From Ktedonobacterales bacterium (GTDB lineage: Bacteria; Chloroflexota; Ktedonobacteria; Ktedonobacterales; DATBGS01), in NCBI GenBank assembly GCA_036557285.1, contig DATBHW010000052.1, forward strand, positions 62,001 to 126,000: a DNA stretch of 64,000 bases. The letters are read 5' to 3'. The notes under the pieces are model-generated. The model was given only the letters and a program-made list of their open reading frames with translations. It did not search any database and had not been told where the DNA came from. A program made the position numbers and the translations under genes. Numbering within the stretch: the first letter of the stretch is position 1; each line of letters begins with the position of its first letter. This document shows, one piece after another, positions 717 to 8,317 of the stretch.

Positions 717-1043
717 TCAGGTTGAGGAAACAAACGTTGCTGTGATGGGTGTATCATCTGGTTCCGCTGGACGCAGAGTGATTTCCGCTTTTAGGCCCAG
801 GGCGGAGAGCAATTCTGTAATCGTCTCAAGAGTAGGGTTGGCTTCATCTCCGGTCAGAATACGGGTTACAGCTTCGCGCCGTCTTCCCATTCTTGTGGCT
901 AGCTCTTTCTGCGTTATATGCAGCGACCTGCGCGCCTCCTCAATGGCGTGCAGCAAGTTCAACGCTGCATCCATCTCACGAAAGCCAGCAGCGAACTCTG
1001 AATCTTTCATGTCTTCTTGCAGACGCTGATGAAAACGGCTCAT
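717..1043 (-). CDS. XRE-family HTH antitoxin (HigA-like)
   Basis: This 108-residue protein has a helix-turn-helix in its middle third (ITQKELATRMGRRREAVTRI, roughly residues 43-62), followed by the TLETITELLSALG segment typical of small XRE repressors. Its start overlaps the stop of the upstream toxin-like gene by 4 bp, so the pair is translationally coupled in toxin-first order, as in higBA loci. The expected role is to neutralise the partner toxin and to repress the shared promoter. The family assignment is secure; the antitoxin function is inferred from the pairing. Confidence 0.82.
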   Translation of the reverse strand: MSRFHQRLQEDMKDSEFAAGFREMDAALNLLHAIEEARRSLHITQKELATRMGRRREAVTRILTGDEANPTLETITELLSALGLKAEITLRPAEPDDTPITATFVSST

Positions 1044-1438
1044 AGCTGGTGCTCCAGTTCAGGCTCTTCAGGGCTAACCCTGCGTGTTCGCTGATAATCC
1101 TGCCAATAAGCAAATGCCAGCTTCAGATCAGATTTTGAGGCAGCCTCTCCACCACGTTTCACGTACCTGTGCAGCAAGACGGCTCTTGCGCTATCAAAAC
1201 CAAACAACTCGCGTCCCAACGACTGGCTATGAATGGCGCGAATCTCCCATAATCCACTATATCCTCTGCACGCTTCGATGAGACCTCCACCAAGGTGAGG
1301 CCCATACTTTTCCAACTCCAAAGCAATGCGTCTTATCTTGGCAGCAAGTTTCGGGTTGCTACGCTTCAGCGTATCCTCAAAGAGTTCGGCGGGCTGTAGC
1401 CCATCCGCTTGCTCGTAATACTCTACCGTCCATCCCAT
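1040..1438 (-). CDS. RelE/HigB-like toxin (phage-derived Gp49-like)
   Basis: This 132-residue basic protein has the ParE/RelE-superfamily layout seen in Gp49/HigB-like proteins: VEYYEQADG at the start, two helices with KLAAKIRRIALELEKYG, then the strand block GLWEIRAI and LFGFDSARAVLLHRYVKRG. HigB-type toxins are ribosome-associated mRNA interferases. The usual closing Lys-rich segment (KRGGEAASKSDLKLAFAYW) is present, so the gene looks intact. It is the first gene of the pair and overlaps the HTH antitoxin by 4 bp. Activity is inferred from family and context. Confidence 0.8.
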   Translation of the reverse strand: MGWTVEYYEQADGLQPAELFEDTLKRSNPKLAAKIRRIALELEKYGPHLGGGLIEACRGYSGLWEIRAIHSQSLGRELFGFDSARAVLLHRYVKRGGEAASKSDLKLAFAYWQDYQRTRRVSPEEPELEHQL

Positions 1439-1985: not shown

Positions 1986-2237
1986 CTAATGCTCACTCTC
2001 AAACGACGCCAACGTCAGACTTCCCGCGCTATCGGTGAGGAGCTGCTGCACGCGCAGTTCGGCGTCATCCAGCAGGCGCTCGCAGTACTGCGCCAGCTTC
2101 ATACCCTCCTCGAAATGGGCCATCGCCTCATCCAGCGAGAGATCGCCACCATCCATAGCCTCCACCGCCTGCTCCAGACGCTCAAACGCCTCCTCGAAGG
2201 TCAGCCCGACAAACTCATTCTGCTTCTGTTTGGTCAT
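1986..2237 (-). CDS. xseB: Exodeoxyribonuclease VII small subunit
   Basis: This 83-residue protein matches XseB: the core GLTFEEAFERLEQAVEAMDGG followed by LSLDEAMAHFEEGMKLAQYC and a Leu-rich C-terminal helix. Several copies of XseB bind one XseA to form exonuclease VII, which degrades single-stranded DNA to oligonucleotides in recombination and repair. It starts inside the last 23 bp of xseA, a typical coupled arrangement that supports co-translation. Length is normal for the family. Confidence 0.95.
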   Translation of the reverse strand: MTKQKQNEFVGLTFEEAFERLEQAVEAMDGGDLSLDEAMAHFEEGMKLAQYCERLLDDAELRVQQLLTDSAGSLTLASFESEH

Positions 2238-3492
2238 CCTGCTCGTCCTCCGCGACTAGATGCCAGACCACGCTGCGAATATGCCCATCGCGCACCTGAA
2301 TATCCAGTTCCTCCCCTGCTTCCACCTGATGCACGCTCTTCACTGTCTGGCCGTTGGCCTCGCGGCGCACCACCGCGTAGCCGCGCGCAATCGTCAGCAG
2401 CGGGCTGAGCGAGTTCAGATGCAGCGCCGCGCCGCGCAGACGCTCGCGGCGCATCCCCAGTACATGATCCAGGCGTTCGCTCATCGTGCGCGTGGCCTCA
2501 TCCACCTGCTGGCGAGCGCGGGTCAGGCGGCTCATGGGACTGGCGCGCACGAGATCGCGCTGATACCCGGTGAGCGCGCCGCGCAGCAGTTCCAGCTTAC
2601 TTTCCATCAACTCGGTCAGGCGTTCCTGGGCATCGGCCACCGAACGCCGCCACTCAGCCGCGTCAGGTACCGCCGCGGCGGCAGCGGCGGTGGGCGTGGA
2701 AGCGCGATAATCGGCTACAAAATCGGCGATGGTAAAATCGGTTTCGTGGCCTACGCCGGTAATCACCGGCAGGCGCGAGCGGTAAATCGCGCGGGCAACC
2801 TCTTCTTCGTTAAAGGCCCAGAGTTCTTCCACTGACCCGCCGCCGCGCGCCACGATAATCACATCCGCCGCGCCATGCGTGTTGAGCAGGTCAATGGCCG
2901 CCGCGATTTGCCTGGCGGCAGCTTCGCCCTGCACCAGCGTGGGCGCCAGAATCACGCGCACCAGCGGGCAGCGCGTGCGCAGCACCCGCAGCATATCGCG
3001 CAGCGCGGCAGCCTGGGGCGAAGTGACTATCCCAATCACACCTGGTACGCGCGGCAGCGGGCGCTTGCGCTCTTCAGCAAACAACCCCTCAGCCTCCAGG
3101 CGCTGTTTCATCTGCTCAAAGCGCAGATGGAGCAGCCCGACGCCAGCCTCTTCGATTTCCCCCACGACCAGTTGATAGTCGCCCCGGCTCTCATAAAGGG
3201 TCAGCCGTCCGCGCGCCAGCACCGCCATACCATTGCGCAGTGTCACCGGGGCTGGCGCGAGCAGCGGCGCAAAGAGATGGGCGCGCGAGTTGTGTGGAGC
3301 GCCCGCGCGACGAAACATCACGCAGCGCAGTTGCGCGCCCTCATCCTTGAGCGAAAAATATTGATGCCCGGCAGAAGACTGCGAGTAATTAGAAATCTCG
3401 CCCTGCACCCAAACGTCCTGCAAGAGCGGGTCTGTCTCCAGCACCTCTTTGAGATAAAGCGTCAACTGGCTGACCGCGAAGAGTTGCATCAT
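2215..3492 (-). CDS. xseA: Exodeoxyribonuclease VII large subunit
   Basis: This 425-residue protein has the full XseA architecture: an N-terminal OB-fold (LFAVSQLTLYLKEVLE, then DVWVQGEISN, residues about 4-100), the catalytic domain with GVIGIVTSPQAAALRDML (about 150-170), the signature IIVARGGGSVEELWAFNEE (about 213-231) and PVITGVGHETDFTIADFVAD. A coiled-coil C-terminal region contacts XseB. It cleaves single-stranded DNA in both directions. The gene lies 23 bp downstream of the AccB homologue and overlaps xseB, so it belongs to the pepP-efp-accB-xseAB run. Nothing is missing. Confidence 0.96.
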   Translation of the reverse strand: MMQLFAVSQLTLYLKEVLETDPLLQDVWVQGEISNYSQSSAGHQYFSLKDEGAQLRCVMFRRAGAPHNSRAHLFAPLLAPAPVTLRNGMAVLARGRLTLYESRGDYQLVVGEIEEAGVGLLHLRFEQMKQRLEAEGLFAEERKRPLPRVPGVIGIVTSPQAAALRDMLRVLRTRCPLVRVILAPTLVQGEAAARQIAAAIDLLNTHGAADVIIVARGGGSVEELWAFNEEEVARAIYRSRLPVITGVGHETDFTIADFVADYRASTPTAAAAAAVPDAAEWRRSVADAQERLTELMESKLELLRGALTGYQRDLVRASPMSRLTRARQQVDEATRTMSERLDHVLGMRRERLRGAALHLNSLSPLLTIARGYAVVRREANGQTVKSVHQVEAGEELDIQVRDGHIRSVVWHLVAEDEQDDQTEAE

Positions 3493-3515: not shown

Positions 3516-4055
3516 CTAAACAGTGGTATCAATAGTCATCATATGCTGACCGTATTCCACCGGCTGACCGTCTTTAACGACAATCTCCACCACTCGCCCG
3601 GCGACTGGCGTCTCGACTTCATTCATCACATTCAGCGCCTCGACCGCGCCGACGATCTGCCCCACACGAACCTGATCGCCTACAGACACGGCGGCCTTGG
3701 AGCCGCGCTTCAAGCTGACTCGAAATGTACCCACCAGCGTCGCTGCCACCTTCTGGAGCGTTTCCGGGGCGGCTGGCGCAGACTCGGCACTCTCTGGCAC
3801 AGCCTCTTGCGCCGCCGCAGCCACCGCAGAAGCATTCTGGTCCTCCATAGCCGCCAGTACTGACCCGGCCCCAACGAGCGGCGTAGGCTTGCGCAGCGTC
3901 AGCCGCAGCCCCTCACTCTCGCGTTCAATGGTCAGTTCATGGACATCACTCGTATCCATCATCTGAATCAGCCGACGCACCTGCTCCACGCTGATGCTGG
4001 CATCTGGAGCGGTTGACGCCGCTGAAACCCTGGACTCGCCTTGCTCTTTTACCAT
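3516..4055 (-). CDS. AccB-like biotin/lipoyl attachment domain protein lacking the biotinyl lysine
   Basis: The 179-residue protein has AccB layout: an N-terminal helix pair (residues 20-60, SVEQVRRLIQMMDTSDVHEL), an Ala/Pro linker (about 68-104), and a C-terminal biotinyl-domain hammerhead (about 105-179). In functional AccB the motif is E-A-M-K-M-M-N and the Lys is biotinylated. Here it reads EALNVMNEVETP, so residue 142 is Asn (codon AAT on the minus strand, 3630-3632). The rest of the fold, including GQPVEYGQ near the end, is intact. accC, which often follows accB, is absent. As written the protein cannot carry biotin. It may be a structural or regulatory subunit comparable to plant BADC proteins, with a second, functional AccB elsewhere. 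A G-rich ribosome binding site precedes the ATG. Confidence 0.85.
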   Translation of the reverse strand: MVKEQGESRVSAASTAPDASISVEQVRRLIQMMDTSDVHELTIERESEGLRLTLRKPTPLVGAGSVLAAMEDQNASAVAAAAQEAVPESAESAPAAPETLQKVAATLVGTFRVSLKRGSKAAVSVGDQVRVGQIVGAVEALNVMNEVETPVAGRVVEIVVKDGQPVEYGQHMMTIDTTV

Positions 4056-4121: not shown

Positions 4122-4679
4122 CTATACCCGCTCCAGATAGGATGCGGTATCGGTTTTCACCCGGATCACATCGCCCGTACTGACAAAGAGCGGCACCTGC
4201 ACCGTCAGGCCCGTCTCCAGCGTGGCTGGCTTGGTTCCGCCAGTCGCCGTATCCCCCTTGAAGCCCGGCTCGGTATAGGTCACGCGCAGGTCCACTGTCG
4301 CTGGCGGCTCCAGCGACAGTGGTTCCTCATTATAACTGACCAGCTCAAACGTCAGCCCATCCACCAGATAATAGCGGTTATCGCCAAGCTGCGCCGTCGT
4401 GAGCGGAATCTGCTCGAAGTTTTCGGTATCCATGAAATAGTAATGATCGCCATCCTGATATTGAAACTGGACCGGGCGCTCATCCAGGTCCACGCGCGGA
4501 AACTTTTCGCCCGAATCGAAGGTGCGCTCGAAGATGGCTCCCGTGCGCAGATTGCGCATCTTCACACGCACAATCGCGCCGCCGCGCCCGATCTTAATAT
4601 GCTGCCATTCGATAATGCTCATCAATTGACCATCCAGGTCAATGGTCGCGCCGCGCTTCAGATCGCCCACCGAGATCAT
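4122..4679 (-). CDS. efp: Translation elongation factor P
   Basis: This 185-residue protein has the three EF-P domains: KOW-like domain 1 (residues 1-62), the OB domain II (PVQFQYQDGDHYYFMDTENF) and domain III ending VSTGDVIRVKTDTASYLERV. EF-P relieves ribosome stalling at polyproline. The tip of the domain 1 loop reads HIKIGRGGAIVRVK, so the modified position is Arg32 rather than the Lys of the EpmA/B system. Whether it is rhamnosylated is unknown, and no earP is visible. The many Pro-rich proteins in this window are plausible clients. An AGGAGG site precedes the ATG. It sits between pepP and the AccB homologue. Confidence 0.96.
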   Translation of the reverse strand: MISVGDLKRGATIDLDGQLMSIIEWQHIKIGRGGAIVRVKMRNLRTGAIFERTFDSGEKFPRVDLDERPVQFQYQDGDHYYFMDTENFEQIPLTTAQLGDNRYYLVDGLTFELVSYNEEPLSLEPPATVDLRVTYTEPGFKGDTATGGTKPATLETGLTVQVPLFVSTGDVIRVKTDTASYLERV

Positions 4680-4750: not shown

Positions 4751-5854
4751 CTAAGCATTCAGTACCAGTTCTTTTGGCGCGCGGGTCAGAATATTCACAC
4801 CCGTTTGGGTAATCACGCCCATATCTTCAATGCGCACACCGCCCCAGCCGGGGATATAGATGCCAGGCTCAATCGTCACCACCGCTCCCACGCGCAGCGG
4901 CGCGTCGGAGTTAAAGCGGCTCATGCGCGGGTATTCATGAACCTCCAGGCCAACACCGTGACCAGTGCCATGCACATAATATTCGCCGTAGCCCGCCTGC
5001 TCAATTGTCGCGCGCGCCAGCGCATCGGCAGCCTGGCCCACCAGGTCCGCGCGCAGCCCCGCCTCGCAGGCCATCTGCGCCCGCAAGACCACCTCATGAA
5101 CCTCGCGCAGTTTGGCGTCTGGCTCGCCCAGGCAGAGAGTGCGTGTCATATCCGAGCAATAGCCCTGATAGCGCGTACCCATATCTATCGTGATTGGCTC
5201 GCCTTTTTCCAACTTGCGCTCGGTTGGCGTCGCGTGCGGCAGGGCGGCATTTGGCCCGGAAGCGACAATGGAGGGGAACGACGCGTCTTCGGCTCCCTGC
5301 GCCAGCATAAAGCGCAGAATCTCCCAGGCCACTTCTTTTTCCGTCAGCCCTGGGCGAAGCCAGCCTTGCAGGTGGGCAAAGGTCTCATCGGTAATCTGCT
5401 GCGCCTGCCTGATACGCTCAACTTCGCCTTCATCTTTGCATTCCCGCAGCGGTTCGACGACATCGTTCAGCGCCTTTAGCGTGAAGGCATCTTTGCTCTC
5501 AGCGAGCATGCTTTGATAGATCGCCACCGAAACCCGCTCGGCCTCGAGGCCAACCGTCTGCCAGCCTTGCTGGCGGATCGTTTCAGCGAGGATGGGGCCA
5601 AATGCGGCCTGGCGAATGACCAGCGGCACATCAGGCGCTTCGCGCGTGGCCTGCTCGGTATAGCGCCCATCGGTGACAAGCAGCATTCTGTCGCTGCCGA
5701 TGAGCAACTGACCGGCAATATCCAGACCTTCATCGTGGGCATAAAAGCCGCTAAGATAATAGCGGCTCATATCCTGAGTAATCAGCAGCGCATCAACCTG
5801 TAATTCCGCCATCCTCTGGCGCAAGCGTTCGACGCGCTCGGCAGGTGTAGACAT
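4751..5854 (-). CDS. M24 family Xaa-Pro aminopeptidase
   Basis: A creatinase-like N-terminal domain (residues 1-125) precedes the pita-bread M24 catalytic domain. The metal ligands are visible in order: Asp in ITIDMGTRYQGY, Asp in CSDMTRT, His in GTGHGVGLEVHE, Glu in VTIEPGIY and Glu in VRIEDMG. These enzymes remove the N-terminal residue before proline. I chose the ATG at 5854 (MSTPAERVERLRQ, 367 aa) because GGAG lies 6 bases upstream. The frame stays open for 28 further residues upstream, to an ATG at 5938, but these look non-coding. It is the first gene of the minus-strand run that continues with efp. Confidence 0.92.
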   Translation of the reverse strand: MSTPAERVERLRQRMAELQVDALLITQDMSRYYLSGFYAHDEGLDIAGQLLIGSDRMLLVTDGRYTEQATREAPDVPLVIRQAAFGPILAETIRQQGWQTVGLEAERVSVAIYQSMLAESKDAFTLKALNDVVEPLRECKDEGEVERIRQAQQITDETFAHLQGWLRPGLTEKEVAWEILRFMLAQGAEDASFPSIVASGPNAALPHATPTERKLEKGEPITIDMGTRYQGYCSDMTRTLCLGEPDAKLREVHEVVLRAQMACEAGLRADLVGQAADALARATIEQAGYGEYYVHGTGHGVGLEVHEYPRMSRFNSDAPLRVGAVVTIEPGIYIPGWGGVRIEDMGVITQTGVNILTRAPKELVLNA

Positions 5855-8155: not shown

Positions 8156-8317
8156 GGTTCTACCAAAAAGCGGGGGCCACCTGTAGCGCCGCCGTCTCGG
8201 CGGCTCAACGCTGCGCCAGGGCGCGCGTTCGCCCTCCGGGCCACGGCGCCAGCAGGCCACCGTTGGCCGCCGAGACGGCGGCGCTACCAGCGGCAACCCC
8301 CGATCATTGGTGGAACC
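8156..8317. mobile_element. MITE copy A (palindromic, 9-bp target duplication)
   Basis: A 162-bp element begins GGTTCTACCA and ends in the complement TTGGTGGAACC. Inside are inverted arms TGTAGCGCCGCCGTC/GACGGCGGCGCTAC. It is flanked by CGCCTATTG (8147-8155) and CGCCCATTG (8318-8326), a 9-bp target duplication with one mismatch. No ORF for a transposase is present. It sits in the divergent gap between osmC and the cupin gene, so it may carry or separate their promoters. Confidence 0.88.

Follow-up and report, generated by a model that had tools for sequence, protein, structure and literature searches.

In Chloroflexota lineages that have a second biotin carrier protein (BCCP), usually encoded beside accC/fabF, the BCCP encoded next to efp lacks the biotin attachment lysine and is kept intact. 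Fatty-acid synthesis has its committed step in acetyl-CoA carboxylase, for which four subunits are usually listed in bacteria. Judged by sequence, the lysine-less protein is probably a non-catalytic subunit of this enzyme, which would join assemblies of biotin carboxylase (BC) and BCCP via an N-terminal helix and hairpin and act similarly to the plant BADC proteins. The wider proposal is that of an ancient, non-biotinylated BADC equivalent extending across the phylum, which would have arisen independently of plants and would tune malonyl-CoA synthesis in mixed assemblies with BC and true AccB; for this, we consider the case evenly balanced.

An AccB homologue with asparagine at the attachment site

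The gene was detected in a window of 64,000 nucleotides, the whole stretch of DNA that was analysed, from a member of the Ktedonobacterales. Its features are:

3516..4055, minus strand: lysine-less AccB/BCCP paralogue, 179 aa (profile matches, AlphaFold2 model, PDB folds)
3522..3764, minus strand: barrel domain of the biotinyl type (about residues 98-178), lacking the attachment lysine (profile, model, PDB folds)
3630..3632, minus strand: AAT codon (Asn142) at the biotinyl-lysine position (aligned to the biotinyl lysine of E. coli)
3888..3989, minus strand: N-terminal helix (residues 23-35) and beta-hairpin (40-55), proposed assembly module (secondary structure of the model, conservation)

The open reading frame starts with ATG and contains no internal stop codons. 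Asn142 is part of the motif VEALNVMNE, and the biotinylatable lysine of E-A-M-K-M/L/V is absent. A preliminary description had designated the gene an AccB homologue with asparagine in place of the biotinylated lysine, which proved to be true, and its description of the gene was correct in all details checked. The BCCP profile TIGR00531 matched residues 22-176 with 110.8 bits, and the lysine-bearing AccB of the same genome reached 112.8 bits, likewise just under the cut-off of 115.2. Biotin_lipoyl yielded 46.9 bits, and the top PDB sequence match was E. coli BCCP (4hr7_B, E 7e-18).

A conventional carboxylase in the same genome

Besides the lysine-less copy, the genome (5.1 Mb, 97% complete) harbors a complete conventional carboxylase. 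The second AccB, whose presence had been suggested as a check, was found at L041:8019-8546 with the motif VEAMKVFNE and the gene order accC-fabF-accB, while accD and accA adjoin each other on another contig. Ten Biotin_lipoyl matches were obtained in total, and the biotin/lipoate protein ligase family is represented by two matching genes. The carrier function in these cells presumably falls to the true AccB. A 201-aa biotin-carrier-like protein with the motif EAMKMEN, separate from AccB and probably belonging to another biotin enzyme, is also encoded (L042:7898-8503, contig C48).

Conservation within the Ktedonobacterales

A survey of the order comprised 47 genomes, the one described here included, many of them draft assemblies. 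The lysine-less orthologue is present in 44, and the three genomes in which it is missing have a completeness of 76-87%. As for the conservation of the residue in related Ktedonobacteria, a further check that had been proposed, lysine is absent from all 44 orthologues and replaced by asparagine, sometimes arginine, within the motif [EQ][AST]L[NR][VIL]. In 42 of these 44 genomes, another BCCP was detected whose identity to the lysine-less protein is about 30%; the remaining two are 58% and 88% complete. Where read, these second copies belong to the type linked to accC/fabF and carry EAMK or ESMK.

Among the carriers of the lysine-less form are named isolates such as Dictyobacter aurantiacus, Ktedonobacter robiniae, and Ktedonosporobacter rubrisoli, in line with the Ktedonobacteria assumed in the preliminary description. 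A sequencing or assembly error in one codon of a normal accB, for which the probability is close to nil, is refuted by dozens of genomes, sequenced independently of one another and including named isolates, that show the identical loss.

Selective constraint

Median dN/dS values, determined from six congeneric genomes, were 0.088 for the lysine-less gene, 0.119 for accB, 0.049 for xseA, 0.025 for accC, and 0.013 for efp. Conservation of helix and hairpin is 2.90 bits per column versus 2.93 in true AccB, and that of the barrel 3.01 versus 3.25. In the thumb, the length is kept, but conserved AccB residues are altered, the invariant S-P and F being lost. Other residues are conserved specifically in the lysine-less family, among them L141, V143, E148, and EYGQ.

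These data bear on the possibility that the gene is a neutral leftover of a duplication in slow decay. Residues at the attachment site do vary (N, R, G, Q, D, H). Such variation would be predicted if nothing but the loss of lysine mattered, or if nothing mattered at all. Yet the dN/dS of about 0.09 disfavours neutrality, as do the intact gene in 44 of 44 genomes, the fold predicted with high confidence, and the conserved family-specific residues, which make such a leftover very improbable. The earlier statement that the gene is not decayed is upheld by the same observations. Readings as a pseudogene or as a sequencing error were ruled out by dN/dS and recurrence.

Distribution in the Chloroflexota

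For the phylum, 251 genomes were sampled and representative loci were read, with families coded by f-numbers. Lysine-less BCCPs linked to pepP-efp, with N, R, G, Q, or D at the site, are present in roughly a dozen groups at family level. Copies of this kind next to efp were found in f7 (Q), f13 (G), f16 (D), f17 (Q), f23 (N), f27 (G/R), f54 (R), and f71 (G), and also in f1, f2, and f4. Every lysine-less group, two incomplete genomes aside, has a second BCCP with lysine, which is linked to fabF except in f16, where no fabF was detected beside it. Families with a single BCCP (f15, f24, f52, f56, f58, f72) retain the lysine, nearly always at the efp/xseA locus.

Residue counts refer to the loci read, not to every genome: lysine is present in all 34 fabF-linked copies, whereas among efp-linked copies it is missing from 57 and present in 25, the latter including a few reference loci of other phyla; lysine-less copies total 64. 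Since lysine is missing from 44 of 44 orthologues in the order and present in 34 of 34 fabF-linked AccBs, its loss is beyond chance. The residues aligned at the site, N, R, G, Q, D, or H, exclude a replacement attachment lysine there.

In a tree of the full alignment, built from short, divergent proteins, all lysine-less copies lie to the same side of a weakly supported branch (47/87). When the motif was masked, the tree required two changes, but a single clade or origin was not rejected (AU p=0.44). The simplest history would begin with an ancestral pepP-efp-accB(-accC) locus, followed by a second accB beside accC/fabF and by loss of the lysine, once or a few times, in the efp-linked copy.

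Two further groups of loci were noted. In f3, lysine-less BCCP genes (L057:6275-7057, L164:3769-4341, L028:1414-2007) lie beside genes for a conserved protein of 263-277 aa, with only marginal DUF2398 matches, and for a small protein without Pfam match. A divergent group of BCCPs (L226 in G196, L223 in G108, L235 in G094, L238 in G143) has motifs such as EVMKLMHSV and EAMKVFTSV; two of the four are located just upstream of an accC and possibly belong to another carboxylase.

Genomic neighbourhood and linkage to acc genes

In the window, the lysine-less gene is flanked by the following genes:

1986..2237, minus strand: xseB, exodeoxyribonuclease VII small subunit (TIGR01280, 76.9 bits)
2215..3492, minus strand: xseA, exodeoxyribonuclease VII large subunit, downstream neighbour (TIGR00237, 475.4 bits)
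4122..4679, minus strand: efp, elongation factor P, upstream neighbour (TIGR00038, 239.7 bits)
4751..5854, minus strand: Xaa-Pro peptidase-like gene, pepP-like (under the named equivalog cut-offs)

All five genes share the minus strand in the order pepP-efp-[lysine-less BCCP]-xseA-xseB, and the intervals up to xseA measure 71, 66, and 23 bases. No accC adjoins the lysine-less gene in the window, which agrees with the neighbourhood described previously. Scans for promoters and terminators gave nothing informative. Elsewhere in the window, positions 717-1438 (minus strand) contain a likely type II toxin-antitoxin-like pair, a Gp49-like/HigB-type gene (PF05973, 33.2 bits) followed by one for an HTH_3 protein (40.1 bits), and a GC-rich intergenic stretch resembling an inverted repeat (CTGTAGCGCCGCCGTCTCGGCGG ... 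CCGCCGAGACGGCGGCGCTACCAG) was spotted by eye at 8180-8290.

The short distance of 23 bases to xseA and the efp-[gene]-xseA synteny, kept across most of the order, could indicate that the protein no longer takes part in acetyl-CoA carboxylase and instead serves its operon partners, in EF-P-dependent translation or with exonuclease VII, or has acquired some other new role. Against this, the same neighbourhood contains an ordinary lysine-bearing accB in Chloroflexia and reads pepP-efp-accB-accC in Nitrospirota; generally, the place is occupied outside the Chloroflexota by accB with lysine, often followed by accC. Moreover, the gene is located away from efp and xseA in f3, and no xseA was detected beside it in f13 and f23. 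Because other bacteria hold a normal accB at this position and f3 carries the gene elsewhere, the pepP-efp-xseAB setting is probably inherited rather than functional. A role tied to the operon partners is therefore unlikely, all the more so as copies exist inside an acc operon in two genomes.

The first of these is G036 (Ktedonobacteria bacterium brp13, AP024096.1), with the order fabD-accD-accA-accC-[lysine-less BCCP, QSLNILNE]-accB(EAMKVF). Its fabD, accD, accA, and accC exceed the NCBIfam cut-offs, and the row comprises all carboxylase subunits plus the lysine-less one. In G034, the arrangement is accC-[lysine-less, EVLHIPSE]-accB(EAMKVF). Since the lysine-less copies of both genomes are sisters in the tree, and their accB copies likewise, the linkage to accC probably represents one event, maintained as a unit over considerable divergence. 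In most genomes the lysine-less gene adjoins no acc gene, and direct genetic evidence connecting it with acetyl-CoA carboxylase comes from G036 and G034 only; mainly for this reason, a carboxylase subunit is the preferred interpretation.

Predicted structure and possible mode of action

The AlphaFold2 model, calculated with 24 sequences, reaches a pLDDT of about 97 for the barrel, compared with about 86-92 for the N-terminal module, and exhibits the BCCP fold with N-terminal helix and hairpin and a thumb-type biotinyl domain. Foldseek placed 1bdo and 4hr7 (E. coli BCCP) and 9a87 (Arabidopsis BCCP1) among the first four PDB folds. The biotinyl domain superimposes on E. coli BCCP of the BC complex (4hr7) with an rmsd of 0.6 and a TM of 0.95 by target length, and the barrel is 37% identical to E. 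coli BCCP.

The conserved N-terminal region might also suit a transcriptional or autoregulatory relic, a BCCP controlling acc gene expression instead of enzyme assembly. Autoregulation by AccB has been proposed in E. coli. Bacterial controllers of acetyl-CoA carboxylase encoded beside acc genes do exist, for example YqhY at the Bacillus accBC operon (PMC5437119). However, profile searches of the lysine-less protein revealed no DNA-binding domain, and its C-terminal domain, unneeded by a purely N-terminal regulator, is constrained nearly like that of AccB, so that a function of this type appears distinctly improbable.

For the preferred role as a carboxylase subunit, the BC1 protein of Chloroflexus aurantiacus is instructive. 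There, four BCCP hairpins form an eight-stranded barrel bridging biotin carboxylase dimers, by which activity is raised, and the hairpin drives tetramerisation of BC (PMC11077971). Residues 40-55 of the lysine-less protein are taken as the counterpart of this hairpin, and we infer that they can mix with AccB hairpins. Helix and hairpin would then admit the protein to BC-BCCP assemblies, together with biotin carboxylase, true AccB, or both, where it would set stoichiometry and stability of the complex. Much like plant BADC, it could act as an assembly cap, or it could dilute the biotinylated BCCP and lower malonyl-CoA production. Not every AccB interface is kept, because the thumb differs.

Comparison with known systems

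With AccB/BCCP (TIGR00531; E. coli 4hr7, 1bdo), the protein shares the N-terminal helix and hairpin, the flexible linker, and the biotinyl-type barrel, but it differs by the absent attachment lysine, the changed thumb residues, and the presence of a separate true AccB. Homology-based annotation would call such genes AccB, and metabolic models would be misled.

Chloroflexus aurantiacus, from the same phylum, has BC1, a BC-BCCP fusion, and a separate BCCP. In a Chloroflexus relative the BCCP locus lies beside xseA, but unlike the lysine-less protein, Chloroflexus BCCP retains EAMKM. The accessible part of the C. aurantiacus study (PMC11077971) reports no lysine-less carrier. YqhY of Bacillus subtilis is also bacterial, is encoded with accBC, and has been proposed as a modulator of the carboxylase (PMC5437119); it belongs to the Asp23 family, whereas the protein described here is a carrier homologue. 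An earlier report of a bacterial lysine-less BCCP was not found in the open-access literature, where absence is no proof.

A close parallel is offered by the BADC (biotin attachment domain-containing) proteins of plants, which are subunits of the heteromeric carboxylase of plastids. BADC has been described as an inhibitor in vivo and as an assembly 'glue' in vitro (PMC11926652). Like BADC, the protein is homologous to BCCP but lacks the biotinylation motif, shares its genome with a bona fide BCCP (EAMKV in the genome analysed), and is conserved and not decayed. The precedent of BADC, named in the preliminary description, gained strength from the two genomes with the lysine-less copy between accC and the real accB. 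Unlike BADC, the protein is bacterial and is encoded beside efp or, in two cases, beside accC/accB. Cyanobacteria have exactly one BCCP in 105 of 117 genomes, a second one was found in none of the 117, and all BCCPs in the loci read possess the lysine. Because these genomes show at most one BCCP each, they do not indicate common descent with plant BADC.

If the interpretation is correct, the first enzyme of fatty-acid synthesis may contain an overlooked subunit, structural or regulatory, of a kind so far reported only from plants, and a small recombinant system could settle whether such proteins inhibit or assemble the carboxylase. There would be a conserved fifth subunit across the phylum, carrier-like but dead as a carrier, and plants and bacteria would have converged on one trick.
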